From Candidatus Sungiibacteriota bacterium (GTDB lineage: Bacteria; Patescibacteriota; Minisyncoccia; Sungbacterales; HO2-52-23), in assembly GCA_016186095.1 (NCBI GenBank), contig JACPMG010000001.1, positions 1 to 44,782 on the forward strand: a stretch of DNA of 44,782 nucleotides, written 5' to 3'. This document shows, one piece after another, positions 1 through 44,782 of this stretch; position 1 is the first letter of the stretch, and the number at the start of each line of letters is the position of its first letter. The notes under the pieces are model-generated. The model saw only the letters and a list, made by a program, of their open reading frames with translations. It was not told where the DNA came from and ran no database searches. The position numbers and the translations under genes are program-made.

Positions 1-819
1 CTCGGAGAGTGCGCTATCAGTACCACGGCTTGCAAGCGAGGCCAGTTCAAATTTCAAAGGAACGTCCATCTTGATGGTGGCAAGCGCCTTGGAAAATTTA
101 GCTTCTTCCTCTCCTTCACGAAGACGTTCGGATACTGCGGCCGAAACCTTCTTAGAGGGTTTCTTAAGCGTTTTGTATAGCTTTTCTATGGACCTGAACT
201 TTTTAATAAGCTCGGTAGCCGTTTTTTCCCCGACACCTTTTACTCCGGGTATGTTGTCGGAAGGATCGCCCCGAAGCCCCTTGAAGTCTATGAGCTCTTT
301 AGGGCCGAATCCGTAACGCTCACGCACCGCCTTCTCATTATAAATAACGGTGTCGGATATTCCTTTTTTCATGGCATATACCCTAAGCCGAGGGCGCACG
401 AGCTGCAGAGCGTCCATGTCGCCAGTCACGACGATAATCTCCACATTTTTTTGCGGCTCCAGCTTTTTGGCGATGGTTCCAATTATGTCATCCGCTTCGT
501 ACCCCTCCTTTTCAAAAACAGGTATGCCGAATGAGGCCAGAAGCTCTTTGGTTTTGGAAAACTGGCTAGCCAAATCGCTTGGCGTCTCCGGCCTTTGCGC
601 CTTGTAACGCTCGTAGGCCACGTGACGGAAAGTCGGTCCGGGCAAATCATACGCGGCCGCGATATAATCGGGCTTCAGTTCGCGCAGAATCCTCATGAGA
701 ATCGTGGTAAATCCGTATACCGCGCCGGTGGGTTCGCCTGCGGGCGAGGTTAAGGGGGGAAGGGCATGATAGGCGCGATGGATTATGGCGTGGGAATCAA
801 TTAAAATAAGTCTCTTCAT
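1..819 (-). CDS. polA: DNA polymerase I, N-terminal 5'-3' exonuclease (flap endonuclease) region; gene truncated by window start
   Basis: Minus-strand translation from 819 reads MKRLILIDSHAIIHRAYHALPPLTSPAGEPTGAVYGF...VVTGDMDALQLV...DFKGLRGDPSDNIPGVKGVGEKTA, typical PolA 5'-nuclease motifs. ATGA overlap with the upstream tsaE stop. Confidence 0.93.
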   Translation of the reverse strand, partial: MKRLILIDSHAIIHRAYHALPPLTSPAGEPTGAVYGFTTILMRILRELKPDYIAAAYDLPGPTFRHVAYERYKAQRPETPSDLASQFSKTKELLASFGIPVFEKEGYEADDIIGTIAKKLEPQKNVEIIVVTGDMDALQLVRPRLRVYAMKKGISDTVIYNEKAVRERYGFGPKELIDFKGLRGDPSDNIPGVKGVGEKTATELIKKFRSIEKLYKTLKKPSKKVSAAVSERLREGEEEAKFSKALATIKMDVPLKFELASLASRGTDSALSE

Positions 820-30303: not shown

Positions 30304-33300
30304 ATGCCGGCAGATAAAACAAAAGCTAGCCTTCCGGAATTGGAAGAAAAAATTCTAGAATTCTGGGAGGATAATAAAATTTTTGAAAAAAGCATTCAGC
30401 AGCGCAAAAACGCTCGCCGCTTTGTTTTCTACGACGGGCCGCCTTTCGCTACCGGCCTCCCGCACTACGGGCATATTTTGGCAAGTACCATCAAAGACGT
30501 GGTGCCTCGCTACTGGACCATGCGAGGGTTTAGAGTGGATCGTCGATGGGGCTGGGACTGCCATGGGCTCCCGATTGAAACGTTGGTTGAACAGGAGCTG
30601 AATATCTCCGGGAAAAAATCGATCCAAAAGCACGGCATAAAGAAATTTAACGAAACCGCCAGGTCCAAGGTCCTTAGCTTTGCAGGCGAGTGGTATAAAA
30701 CTATCCGCAGAATTGGGCGTTTTGTTGATTTCAAAAACTATTATTCCACCATGGACCCTGCCTATATGGAGTCGGTGTGGTGGGCTTTCGCGACCCTTTA
30801 CCGCAAAGGATTAGTATATAAAGATTCCCGAACCGCTCTTTTTTGTCCGCGCTGCGAAACCCAACTTTCAAACTTTGAAATTGCCATGGATAACTCTTAT
30901 CGGGAGTTGGAGGATGATTCGGTATATGTAAAACTCCCGCTTAAAAACTCCCAGAATGAGTATCTCTTAATTTGGACCACTACCCCGTGGACTCTTCCCG
31001 GAAACGTGGCCGTGGCCGTGAATCCCAAAATTGAATACACAAAGTTTAGGGTCGGGAAAGAATATATTTGGTCCGCTACGCCTCCACCGCATGAAGCGGG
31101 TGTACAGGTTTCCGTCTCCGAAAAGATTTCCGGGAAATCATTGATGGGGAAAAGATACGAGCCGCTATTTTTTCTGTCAAAGGACCCCCAAGCATATCGC
31201 GTAGTTGGAGCGGAGTTTGTGGACACGCAGGAAGGAACGGGGCTAGTACATATTGCTCCTGCTTTCGGCGAGGAGGATTTTCTCATAGGGAAGCAAGAAA
31301 AGCTCCCCATACTTGCCACGCTTGATGATACGGGAACTTTTACCGGCGAATACGCTCCTCTGAAGTTTCTTGCTGGAAGAAAAACCGCTGAAGCCAATAA
31401 ACTTGTTATCTCTTGGCTCAAGGAAAACGACCGTCTTTGGAAAGTACAAAAAATATCCCACCGCTACCCCATCTGCTGGCGCTGCCAAACGCCGCTTATT
31501 TATAAAGTTGAACCGGCCTGGTTCGTGAAGATTTCGGCTATAAAGAAAAAGATGCTCGCGTTAAACGAAAAGATCGATTGGCACCCGGAGCATTTGAAGC
31601 ACGGACGTTTTGGTAATGGGCTGGAGACTGCGCCTGATTGGAATATCTCGCGCTCCCGCTTCTGGGGAACGCCGGTCCCGATTTGGGGGTGCGAAAAGTG
31701 CGACAAGATTCATGTCTTGGGAAGTAGGGACGAAATTCACCAAAGGAGCGCCGGAGCTAAAAATTATTATTTAATCATGCGTCACGGCGAAGCGGCCTCC
31801 AATGTTAAAAATATTGTTTCGTGCGCCCCGGATGGGCGGTTTGACCTGACTATTAGGGGGAGGACCGGTGTGGAGCGCGCGGCCAAGAAGTTTCGCAAAT
31901 CCGGCATAGATTTAATTTTTGCATCGGATATCCTGCGCACTAGGAAAACCGCCGCGATCGCCGCGAAAGTCTTGGGAGTTGAAAAAGTTATTTTTGACGC
32001 GCGCCTGCGGGAGATAAATACGGGTATTTTTGAAGGCCAGCACCCGCGGGAGTACCATAAATATTTTTCTTCGCGTCTGGAGAAATTTATCAAGCGTCCT
32101 CCGGAAGGGGAGACGCTAAGTGAAGTGAGGTCTCGAGTGTTGAGATTCCTTGAGGATATAGAAAAGAAGTACTCCGGTAAAACCATCTTGATTGTAAGTC
32201 ACGAGTATCCGCTTTGGATGCTATGGTCGGGCGCGGCTGGCCTCACCAATAAAGAGTCGGTGGCTCTGAAAGAGTCCAAGCCCAAGGAAGATTTTATCCG
32301 TTTTGCTGAAATTAGGGAGATGCCTTATAAAATTCTTCCGCGCAATGATTCGGGCGAGCTGGATTTTCACCTTCCTTATATTGATGAAATAAAGCTTTTC
32401 TGCGGCTGCGGAGGGGAACTCAAGCGTATTCCGGATGTTTTCGATTGCTGGTTTGAATCAGGCTCCATGCCTTACGCGGAGAAACATTATCCTTTTGAAA
32501 ACAAGGAGCTTTTTGAGAAAAATTTTCCGGCGGATTTCATTGCCGAATATATAGCGCAAACCCGCGGCTGGTTTTATAATCTCCATGTTCTCTCTACTGC
32601 TCTTTTCGGCAAGCCTAGTTTTCTGCATGCGGTTACCACCGGAACTATTATGGCGGAAAGCGGAGAAAAAATGTCTAAATCCAGAAAAAATTTTCCCGAT
32701 CCCAGGCTTCTTTTCGGAAAATACGGCATTGACGCACTGCGTTTCTACCTCATGGCCTCTCCGATAATGCTTGCCGATAATATAAATTTTTCGGAAAAGG
32801 ACGTTGCTGAAGTATATAAAAAGTATTCGCTCATTTCTTACAACGTGTTGAGCTTTTTCAAGCTTTATCGCGACCGTCTGAAGAGACTAAAAAATAAAAG
32901 GAAATTAAGCGGTCATGTTTTAGATCGTTGGATTATCTCGCGGTTGCATTCCACGATTAAAGAAATTACTTCCGGTTTTGATCGTTATGAAATTGTGGAA
33001 GCCACACGTCCGCTTTTGGGCTTTGTGCAAGATCTCTCCCTGTGGTATGTGCGAAGATCGCGTGAGCGCGTAAAAGCCGAAACTTCGGATGCGTTGAACG
33101 CTCTGACAACTTTGCAGGGAGTACTTTTGGAATGCGCGAAAATAATGGCGCCGGTCACGCCCTTTCTTGCCGAAATTTTGTATCAGGACCTTTTATATAA
33201 GAAGAAAATTTCCGTGCATCTTGAGGGCTGGCCGAAGTTTGACGCCAAAAAGATAAATAAAGATTTGGAAAAGAAAATGGACGAAGTCCGTGGGCTGGTA

Positions 33301-33738
33301 TCGGAGGCTTTACGCCTGAGAGCGGAGGCGGGGATTAGGGTGAGACAGCCGCTTGCCAGGCTGCAAATCGCAAATCGCAAATTGCGAAGAGAACTCATCG
33401 AACTGATCAAGGATGAAATTAATGTCAAAGAAGTTATTTTTGGGAGCGAATTGAAACTCGATACTGTCATTACGCCGGAACTTAAAGAGGAGGGGATGGC
33501 GCGCGAGGTTATGCGAAATATTCAGGAGATGCGAAAGGATTTGGGTCTTCAGCCGGGGCATAAGGTCAGAGTCCAGTTCTCCGGTGACCAGGAAATAGGA
33601 ACGATGCTTGAGAGGTGGAAAAAAATTATTATGCGAGAAACCGGCGCACATGCGTTTTCCATCGGCGGCAAAAAAATATTTAAGATCGAGCGGGAGCTGG
33701 TTTTGGATGGCCGCACACTTTGGGCGGGTATTTTCTGA
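30304..33738 (+). CDS. ileS: isoleucyl-tRNA synthetase with inserted histidine phosphatase domain
   Basis: YDGPPFATGLPHYGHILA, RYWTMRGFRVDRRWGWDCHGLPIE, WTTTPWTLPGNVAVAV, SRFWGTPVPIWGC, DCWFESGSMPYAEKHYPF, GEKMSKSRKNFPDP; insertion with LIMRHGEAASN and LIVSHEYP. Confidence 0.95.
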   Translation: MPADKTKASLPELEEKILEFWEDNKIFEKSIQQRKNARRFVFYDGPPFATGLPHYGHILASTIKDVVPRYWTMRGFRVDRRWGWDCHGLPIETLVEQELNISGKKSIQKHGIKKFNETARSKVLSFAGEWYKTIRRIGRFVDFKNYYSTMDPAYMESVWWAFATLYRKGLVYKDSRTALFCPRCETQLSNFEIAMDNSYRELEDDSVYVKLPLKNSQNEYLLIWTTTPWTLPGNVAVAVNPKIEYTKFRVGKEYIWSATPPPHEAGVQVSVSEKISGKSLMGKRYEPLFFLSKDPQAYRVVGAEFVDTQEGTGLVHIAPAFGEEDFLIGKQEKLPILATLDDTGTFTGEYAPLKFLAGRKTAEANKLVISWLKENDRLWKVQKISHRYPICWRCQTPLIYKVEPAWFVKISAIKKKMLALNEKIDWHPEHLKHGRFGNGLETAPDWNISRSRFWGTPVPIWGCEKCDKIHVLGSRDEIHQRSAGAKNYYLIMRHGEAASNVKNIVSCAPDGRFDLTIRGRTGVERAAKKFRKSGIDLIFASDILRTRKTAAIAAKVLGVEKVIFDARLREINTGIFEGQHPREYHKYFSSRLEKFIKRPPEGETLSEVRSRVLRFLEDIEKKYSGKTILIVSHEYPLWMLWSGAAGLTNKESVALKESKPKEDFIRFAEIREMPYKILPRNDSGELDFHLPYIDEIKLFCGCGGELKRIPDVFDCWFESGSMPYAEKHYPFENKELFEKNFPADFIAEYIAQTRGWFYNLHVLSTALFGKPSFLHAVTTGTIMAESGEKMSKSRKNFPDPRLLFGKYGIDALRFYLMASPIMLADNINFSEKDVAEVYKKYSLISYNVLSFFKLYRDRLKRLKNKRKLSGHVLDRWIISRLHSTIKEITSGFDRYEIVEATRPLLGFVQDLSLWYVRRSRERVKAETSDALNALTTLQGVLLECAKIMAPVTPFLAEILYQDLLYKKKISVHLEGWPKFDAKKINKDLEKKMDEVRGLVSEALRLRAEAGIRVRQPLARLQIANRKLRRELIELIKDEINVKEVIFGSELKLDTVITPELKEEGMAREVMRNIQEMRKDLGLQPGHKVRVQFSGDQEIGTMLERWKKIIMRETGAHAFSIGGKKIFKIERELVLDGRTLWAGIF
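31755..32340 (+). other. histidine phosphatase (RHG) domain inserted in IleRS
   Basis: YYLIMRHGEAASNVKNIVSC...FASDILRTRKTAAIAAKVLG...LREINTGIFEGQ...PPEGETLSEVRSRVLRFLEDIE...ILIVSHEYPLWML. Confidence 0.9.
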
Positions 33739-43217: not shown

Positions 43218-44782
43218 ATGCGTTACGACCCCACAAAAATAGAAAAGAAATGGCAGAAGCGGTGGTTGAAAGAAGGAATTTATGAACCAGACCTCAAACG
43301 AGCCAAGAGGCCGTTTTATAATTTAATGATGTTCCCGTATCCTTCGGCCGAAGGATTACATATTGGGAGTGTGAGAACTTTTACCGGGATTGATATTTAT
43401 GGAAGGTTCAAAAGAATGCAGGGATACGACGTTTTTGAGCCGATCGGACTTGATGGGTTTGGGATTCATTCAGAAAACTATGCGTTAAAAGTGGGCAAGC
43501 ATCCGTTTCAGCACGCCAAAGATTCGGAGAAAAATTTTTACCGCCAACTCGGAGAAATCGGAAACGGGTTTGCCTGGCGCGAGAAACTGGAGACCTATGA
43601 TCCCGGATACTACAAGTGGACCCAATGGATTTTTACGCAGATGTTTAAGCGCGGACTTGCGTATCGCAAAAAATCACCGGTAAATTGGTGTCCTTCGTGT
43701 AAAACCGTACTCGCGGACGAACAAGTTTTGCAGGGAGAGTGCGAGCGTTGCCAGACGAAAGTCGTCAAAAAAGATTTGGAGCAATGGTTTTTTAAGATTA
43801 CGAATTATGCCGAGCGGCTTCTGAAAAATCTTGAAAAAATTGACTGGCCCGAGCCGATTAAAATCGCGCAAAGGAATTGGATCGGAAAATCGGAAGGAGC
43901 CTTGATACGGTTTCCGCTTGCTGGGAAATTTAATTTCGTGTTTCTGCACGCATATAAAGGGTTTCCTCAACAAGATTTTTGGCCTTGGCTTAAGGGGGTA
44001 CTCGAAAGACAGGGGGCGAGGGTTTTTGCTCCGCAGCTGCCCAGTCCTAGCGAACCGAATATTGAGGAACAGGTGAACTTTCTTTTGAAGAACTATAACT
44101 TTGATGAGAACACGATTATAGTAACCCACAGTTTAGGCGGAGTGGCCGCTATGAAACTTTTACCCAAACTACAGTTGTCAGTCGCAGGTCTTATTATGGT
44201 AGCGCCGCCGATTAGGACAGAGTTTCTGGACGGGAAGAAGCGTCCTGCGTTAGAGGCGGCTTGCGATTGGCAGTTCTCTTTTAGTTCCGTAAGAGAGAAA
44301 GCGGCCTCTATAACGGTAATTAGAGACCTAGGAGATGATATTGTACCCGCAGCCCACCCCAAAGAAATTGCAGAAGCTCTTGGGGCAAAGTTAGTTGATG
44401 TCGTAGCACAAAAGCCGCATTTTCACTCCTCCCAGGAGCCGGACATCCTCCTCAATCTGCCGACAAATATAGAAGTTTTCACCACCCGCCCCGACACGCT
44501 TTTTGGAGCGACCTATATGGTTTTGGGGCCGGAGCACCAGTTAGTTACCAGTTACCAGTTACCAGTTACAAACCGAAAAGAAGTTGACGAATATATTAAA
44601 AAAGCGAAAGCGAAGACGGACGAGGAACGAATTGCGGCGGGAAAGGAAAAAACAGGCGTTGAGTTGAAGGGGATAAAGGCGATCAATCCGGCCAATGGGG
44701 AAAAAATTCCCATCTGGGTCGCGGATTATGTGCTGGGTAATGTCGGAACCGGAGCGATTATGGCGGTGCCGGCGCATGATGA
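43218..44782 (+). CDS. leuS: leucyl-tRNA synthetase, 3'-truncated by window, with inserted RBBP9-like hydrolase
   Basis: Open frame to the window end: MRYDPTKIEKKWQKRWLKEGIYEPDLKRAKRPFYNLMMFPYPSAEGLHIGSVRTFTGIDIYGRFKRMQGYDVFEPIGLDGFGIHSENYA...VNWCPSCKTVLADEQV...IEVFTTRPDTLFGATYMVLGPEH...IPIWVADYVLGNVGTGAIMAVPAHD. Confidence 0.95.
   Translation, partial: MRYDPTKIEKKWQKRWLKEGIYEPDLKRAKRPFYNLMMFPYPSAEGLHIGSVRTFTGIDIYGRFKRMQGYDVFEPIGLDGFGIHSENYALKVGKHPFQHAKDSEKNFYRQLGEIGNGFAWREKLETYDPGYYKWTQWIFTQMFKRGLAYRKKSPVNWCPSCKTVLADEQVLQGECERCQTKVVKKDLEQWFFKITNYAERLLKNLEKIDWPEPIKIAQRNWIGKSEGALIRFPLAGKFNFVFLHAYKGFPQQDFWPWLKGVLERQGARVFAPQLPSPSEPNIEEQVNFLLKNYNFDENTIIVTHSLGGVAAMKLLPKLQLSVAGLIMVAPPIRTEFLDGKKRPALEAACDWQFSFSSVREKAASITVIRDLGDDIVPAAHPKEIAEALGAKLVDVVAQKPHFHSSQEPDILLNLPTNIEVFTTRPDTLFGATYMVLGPEHQLVTSYQLPVTNRKEVDEYIKKAKAKTDEERIAAGKEKTGVELKGIKAINPANGEKIPIWVADYVLGNVGTGAIMAVPAHD
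43920..44463 (+). other. RBBP9/YdeN-like alpha/beta serine hydrolase domain inserted in LeuRS editing region
   Basis: FNFVFLHAYKGFPQQDFWPWLKGVLERQGARVFAPQLPSPSEPNIEEQVNFL...TIIVTHSLGGVAAMKLL...LIMVAPP...VIRDLGDDIVP...QKPHFHSSQEPDILLNLP. Confidence 0.88.
44544..44573. repeat. 7-bp-period tandem tract in leuS
   Basis: GTTACCA GTTACCA GTTACCA GTTACAA ACC. Confidence 0.9.

Follow-up and report, generated by a model that had tools for sequence, protein, structure and literature searches.

The window analysed here, 44,782 nucleotides in length, is the whole of contig C9 in the 32-contig assembly of a 0.68-Mb Patescibacteria genome, and its named relatives are Jorgensenbacteria, Colwellbacteria and other Parcubacteria. 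The contig stops within the gene for leucyl-tRNA synthetase (leuS, LeuRS), whose frame runs uninterrupted on the forward strand from 43218 to 44780; the remainder, the C-terminal half, was not found elsewhere in the 32 contigs. A preliminary description had read this frame as open to the end of the window and placed an insert of about 180 residues at 43920-44463. Both statements hold, as the insert has 177 residues and those coordinates were correct to within about 10 bases (Table 1). LeuRS sequence accounts for residues 1-237 and 415-521 of the window protein. In the alignment with Thermus LeuRS, window residues 2-237 pair with 3-239 and residues 417-521 with 242-344, so that host homology ends at residue 237 and restarts at 416-417. 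The TIGR00396 model is matched at positions 1-240 and again at 238-339, with the N-terminal catalytic part and the CP1 editing domain both present, and the total of 429 bits compares with a cut-off of 548 for a gene that is truncated at the contig end. The KMSK motif is present in insert-bearing LeuRS relatives. A short tandem of AGTTACC units, read as SYQLPVTN, also lies in leuS at about 44539-44571.

Table 1. Features of the window that bear on the inserted enzymes, and the numbering of the LeuRS insertion loops
Feature	Position	Strand	Evidence
ileS with inserted histidine phosphatase (residues 490-651, 31771-32256), second case in the window	30304..33738	+	PF00300, 4.6e-35
leuS N-terminal part, catalytic domain to first CP1 strand (residues 1-237)	43218..43928	+	TIGR00396 positions 1-240, 316 bits
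RBBP9/YdeN-type serine hydrolase insert, 177 residues (238-414), loop site A	43929..44459	+	PF06821; 1uxo by sequence and fold; AlphaFold pLDDT 87.7
Nucleophile elbow THSLGG, catalytic Ser (insert residue 68)	44124..44141	+	Ser in 43/43 synthetase inserts
Acid region LGDDIVP, catalytic Asp	44328..44348	+	Asp in the column in 35/43 inserts
KPHFHS, catalytic His (insert residue 164)	44412..44429	+	His in 43/43 inserts
leuS resumed: CP1 editing domain, TTRPDT and VPAHD intact, runs off contig end	44460..44780	+	PF13603, 3e-41
Insertion loops in the numbering of LeuRS L171: A 243-249, B 372-379, C 454-457, D 502, E 216, F 658-663			

The insert matches PF06821 with 37-39.6 bits against a curated cut-off of 22 (E-values of 4e-9 by hmmscan and 1.8e-10 in a search of its own genome, where it is the sole PF06821 protein), and its similarity by sequence to YdeN (1uxo), at 7e-14, is far beyond chance. 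Modeled alone by AlphaFold, it adopts an alpha/beta-hydrolase fold, for which the best solved structures found by Foldseek are 1uxo (YdeN), 2qs9 and 7oex, RBBP9 with bound phenylalanine included, with TM scores of 0.81-0.85, the value being 0.85 for YdeN and for RBBP9-Phe. When the whole 521-residue fragment was modeled, elements of the hydrolase reappeared between the CP1 strands, but the pTM of 0.50 leaves the relative placement of the domains unresolved. The profile match and the predicted fold, closest to YdeN and RBBP9, thus bear out the earlier assignment to the RBBP9/YdeN family with a complete triad, and the motifs picked out at that time line up with the catalytic positions in every relative. 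The Ser-Asp-His triad is complete by alignment with those relatives, while its distances in the model have not been measured. That a hydrolase of this type is nested in LeuRS we regard as nearly certain.

Whether the inserted domain still works as an enzyme can be judged from the 43 inserts of LeuRS and ValRS in the triad alignment. In eight of these the acid column is not Asp, which could suggest a non-catalytic regulatory or structural module acting as a dimer contact or as a sensor of tRNA or ligand. We find this improbable given that the serine and the histidine are invariant, the first-strand His is kept in 42 of the 43, and several of the eight are acidic in or beside the column. The dN/dS values of 0.09-0.23 in pairs with finite dS are only rough, many pairs being saturated, yet where it can be measured the insert appears on these values to be under purifying selection. 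No biochemistry exists, but the insert is very probably catalytically active.

Two trivial explanations can be set aside. An assembly chimera could be suspected since the contig terminates 321 bases past the insert and there are no reads to map. However, the GC content is smooth across host, insert and host (0.45, 0.48 and 0.49) and many relatives have a hydrolase at the same site, which rules out a chimera for the architecture and leaves it a negligible prospect here, although this copy is without junction-spanning reads. An in-frame insert within a conserved essential gene might also be a self-removing element, either an intein or an intron. Such an element is practically excluded and was rejected: there is no intein Pfam match, no Hint domain and no Rfam match, the insert is hydrolase from end to end, and it closes with ...LNLPTN/IEVF where splice-junction residues would call for His-Asn before Cys, Ser or Thr.

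The architecture is not confined to this genome. With a hydrolase profile built from eight LeuRS inserts and searched over 380 Patescibacteria genomes, the 29 best matches (145-272 bits) all fall inside LeuRS ORFs, and the scores then fall clearly, from 145 to 122 bits, to the best stand-alone enzyme of about 190 aa; L185-L212 were verified as LeuRS by sequence. Within the class of the window, 7 of 384 genomes have the LeuRS-type hydrolase, after which the scores drop from 167 to 113 bits. Further down, both rankings contain lower-scoring matches, among them hydrolases of other types in LeuRS and ValRS. A separate search with LeuRS turned up an insertion at this same site in genomes named as Parcubacteria, Peregrinibacteria, Taylorbacteria and Gracilibacteria, the Gracilibacteria case being L009 from a genome read with code 25. 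Site A holds the hydrolase in L002, L009, L010, L013, L130, L138, L139 and many more, so the expectation that related genomes would share the insertion was met in number. As a control, the profile gave no match in 32 genomes outside the CPR, a small set chosen via LeuRS similarity. Built-in hydrolases recur across the phylum at a few fixed LeuRS positions, and their distribution is patchy even within one family.

The insert proved to be not only real but part of a wider phenomenon than first described, one that involves several loops, several enzyme families and also ValRS and IleRS. Alignment to insert-free LeuRS of the phylum places inserts at six loops. The idea of a single fixed site was rejected, as the serine hydrolase is seen at loops B, C and E as well as A. 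The recognised LeuRS inserts are Nudix, HAM1/ITPase, HAD, ASCH and serine hydrolase, with some domains unrecognised, and site A alone can host serine hydrolase, Nudix, HAD or HAM1. In the class sample at least 26 of 120 LeuRS bear one or more inserts; L150 (G096) was not parsed for them.

Several further observations concern these loops. HAM1, ASCH, HAD and Nudix inserts occur in the LeuRS of L127, L128, L162, L163, L178, L143, L013, L032, L164, L215 and L219, some of which have three or more enzyme domains, and the frame of L013 reaches 1,735 residues. The LeuRS of L149, L153 and L154 (site B) and of L156 have inserts of 113-158 residues, and a Pfam scan of the inserts of L153 and L156 gave no match. 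In L017 the CP1 domain is followed by a nucleotidyltransferase-like segment and then the end of the frame, which could reflect a further insert or a frameshift. Repeat-like peptides, for example VIPAKAGIQ...SGMT, are found at insertion sites in the relatives L185, L198, L200 and L145.

In IleRS the inserted enzyme is a histidine phosphatase. A PF00300 match lies inside a frame of 1,100-1,330 residues in 39 of 64 genomes of the class, so most IleRS of the class appear to hold this domain. The positions compared lie in the interval that separates two IleRS segments, but not every one of the 39 was examined. The ValRS of four genomes (L131-L133 and L179) contains a serine hydrolase, adjoined in L131 by a histidine phosphatase. 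A histidine phosphatase match is also contained in the ValRS frame of G062:C13.

This variety raises the possibility that the hydrolase is a functional passenger, in which case the loops would simply tolerate compact enzymes and an unrelated housekeeping hydrolase would ride in an essential, well-expressed gene of a tiny genome. The occupation of the same loops by Nudix, HAM1, HAD, ASCH and unrecognised domains, the VIPAKAGIQ-type repeat-like peptides that are also found at site A, the spread of the hydrolases over loops A, B, C and E and their patchy distribution would all fit with this, as would a glycosyltransferase ORF (L220) that also houses a hydrolase. In L220 one open frame has the serine hydrolase flanked by two glycosyltransferase-like parts, and an exclusive habit of living in synthetases is rejected as a strict rule. 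A passenger is less easily reconciled with LeuRS hydrolases that form their own lineages, with a switch between sites A and C inside LeuRS rather than repeated stand-alone origin, or with an insert that is kept throughout a 16-row LeuRS clade, although that clade was sampled by insert presence. We consider the passenger explanation a serious contender that falls short of even odds.

The hydrolase tree gives some insight into how the domain came to its present hosts. The inserts of sites A and C share one side of a 100/99 branch, on the other side of which are 37 stand-alone enzymes, the ValRS inserts and a second LeuRS (B) type. This second type occurs at sites A and B in L002, L137 and L169, together with L127/L128. 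Judging by this tree, the LeuRS hydrolases are lineages apart from the stand-alone enzymes. The stand-alone enzymes used were mostly the top PF06821 scorers of one class and closer ones could exist, but none was found in the profile search of 380 genomes. L178_LeuRSC, a row that is in fact a HAM1 insert, was disregarded, and L203, a site C insert, is absent from the tree. The tree built from LeuRS cores calls for 13 changes of the site-A state, at least 8 of them forced by starred branches, which implies that transfers or losses happened repeatedly. The window LeuRS core clusters with its own family, its nearest core being that of G003 (79% identity), which is without the insert, whereas the window hydrolase is nearest to that of G693 from another class. 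Likewise, L206 and L211 share 94% on the N-terminal side of the host but 51% in the insert. These observations suggest that the domain was transferred or replaced in situ, with losses as well, the two not having been formally separated. The hydrolases thus appear to have been exchanged between lineages. As for phage as a vector, tblastn against 50,697 phage records found nothing, and viral contigs yielded a single weak, partial match.

To our knowledge most members of the RBBP9/YdeN family have no known substrate. Human RBBP9 is an aminopeptidase that requires a free alpha-amine; it forms conjugates with Leu/Ile, Phe, Tyr and Trp, and it was concluded to cut amide, ester or thioester linkages that involve hydrophobic amino acids (PMC8866121). 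The presence of an RBBP9-family domain on LeuRS and ValRS, taken with this amino-acid chemistry, suggests hydrolysis of aminoacyl bonds. RBBP9 prefers aromatic residues, which counts against this reading. An aminoacyl substrate, argued by analogy, is only a tentative inference to which we give less than even odds, and the extra ester-hydrolysing role proposed in the preliminary description remains an inference as well.

Our best explanation as a whole is that the gene encodes a LeuRS with intact CP1, as far as it is sequenced, and an autonomous RBBP9/YdeN-type hydrolase as one polypeptide, that the hydrolase occupies a permissive hairpin where CP1 begins and is very probably active, and that it may act on an aminoacyl-type substrate. 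We give this explanation a probability of about 0.5. Like human RBBP9, the hydrolase may cleave ester or amide linkages to hydrophobic amino acids, and could serve as accessory editing by removing misformed or stray aminoacyl conjugates in the vicinity of the synthetase. Alternatively, it could release leucine from peptides for LeuRS. Between an aminoacyl hydrolase and a passenger we slightly prefer the former.

The relation of the hydrolase to CP1 editing is less clear. CP1 motifs are intact in the window LeuRS and in 40 of 44 hydrolase-bearing LeuRS, and therefore the hydrolase is not a general replacement for editing. A degenerate CP1 editing motif without TTRxDT is seen in L191 and L217, both with a serine hydrolase elsewhere in LeuRS, compared with none of the 108 LeuRS that lack the hydrolase. 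The association has a Fisher p of 0.08, or 0.006 when conservative D-to-E changes are counted, but there are just two clear cases, and sampling differed between the groups. That the hydrolase makes up for lost CP1 editing is then no more than a lead drawn from sequence comparison. A more general proposal is that patescibacterial LeuRS, IleRS and ValRS may be scaffolds with defined slots, that exchangeable hydrolase modules may pass from slot to slot between lineages, and that the LeuRS serine hydrolase may be a CP1-independent proofreading site able to replace a decayed CP1. We think this proposal unlikely as it stands.

Aminoacyl-tRNA synthetases are usually viewed as acquiring additional domains slowly. 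In this case a single essential enzyme takes in whole catalytic domains from several unrelated families at a small set of shared loops, and it appears that these domains have passed between hosts that are only distantly related. If the hydrolase acts on aminoacyl bonds, this would mean that proofreading or amino-acid salvage is built into the synthetase of minimal-genome organisms. If it is a passenger, the loops would provide a natural map of LeuRS sites where foreign enzymes can be grafted. Inserted domains in synthetases were already known (PMC13114784), as were polyphyletic insertions in universal enzymes (PMC11515920). We found no description of a hydrolase in LeuRS in open-access full text, though databases may already list the domain pair.

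Compared with the RBBP9/YdeN family (PF06821; 1uxo, 2qs9 and 7oex), the insert has the fold (TM 0.85), triad, length and profile in common, but the known members stand alone as proteins of about 190 aa, whereas the window domain is embedded in LeuRS and falls in a lineage of its own. The window protein shares the catalytic and CP1 domains and the editing motifs with bacterial LeuRS (TIGR00396, CP1 PF13603) and differs in having a whole enzyme in the first CP1 hairpin, its C-terminal half not being in the assembly. The NCBIfam entry NF040702, an IleRS with an N-acetyltransferase domain, is likewise a class I synthetase with a second enzyme; its match to the window protein was confined to synthetase residues 1-101, and the enzyme, host and site differ. 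The lineage-specific insertional domains of RNA polymerase (BEAN/HABAS, PMC11515920) are likewise polyphyletic insertions in a universal enzyme, but those are of other domain types, whereas the LeuRS insertions are complete catalytic domains.
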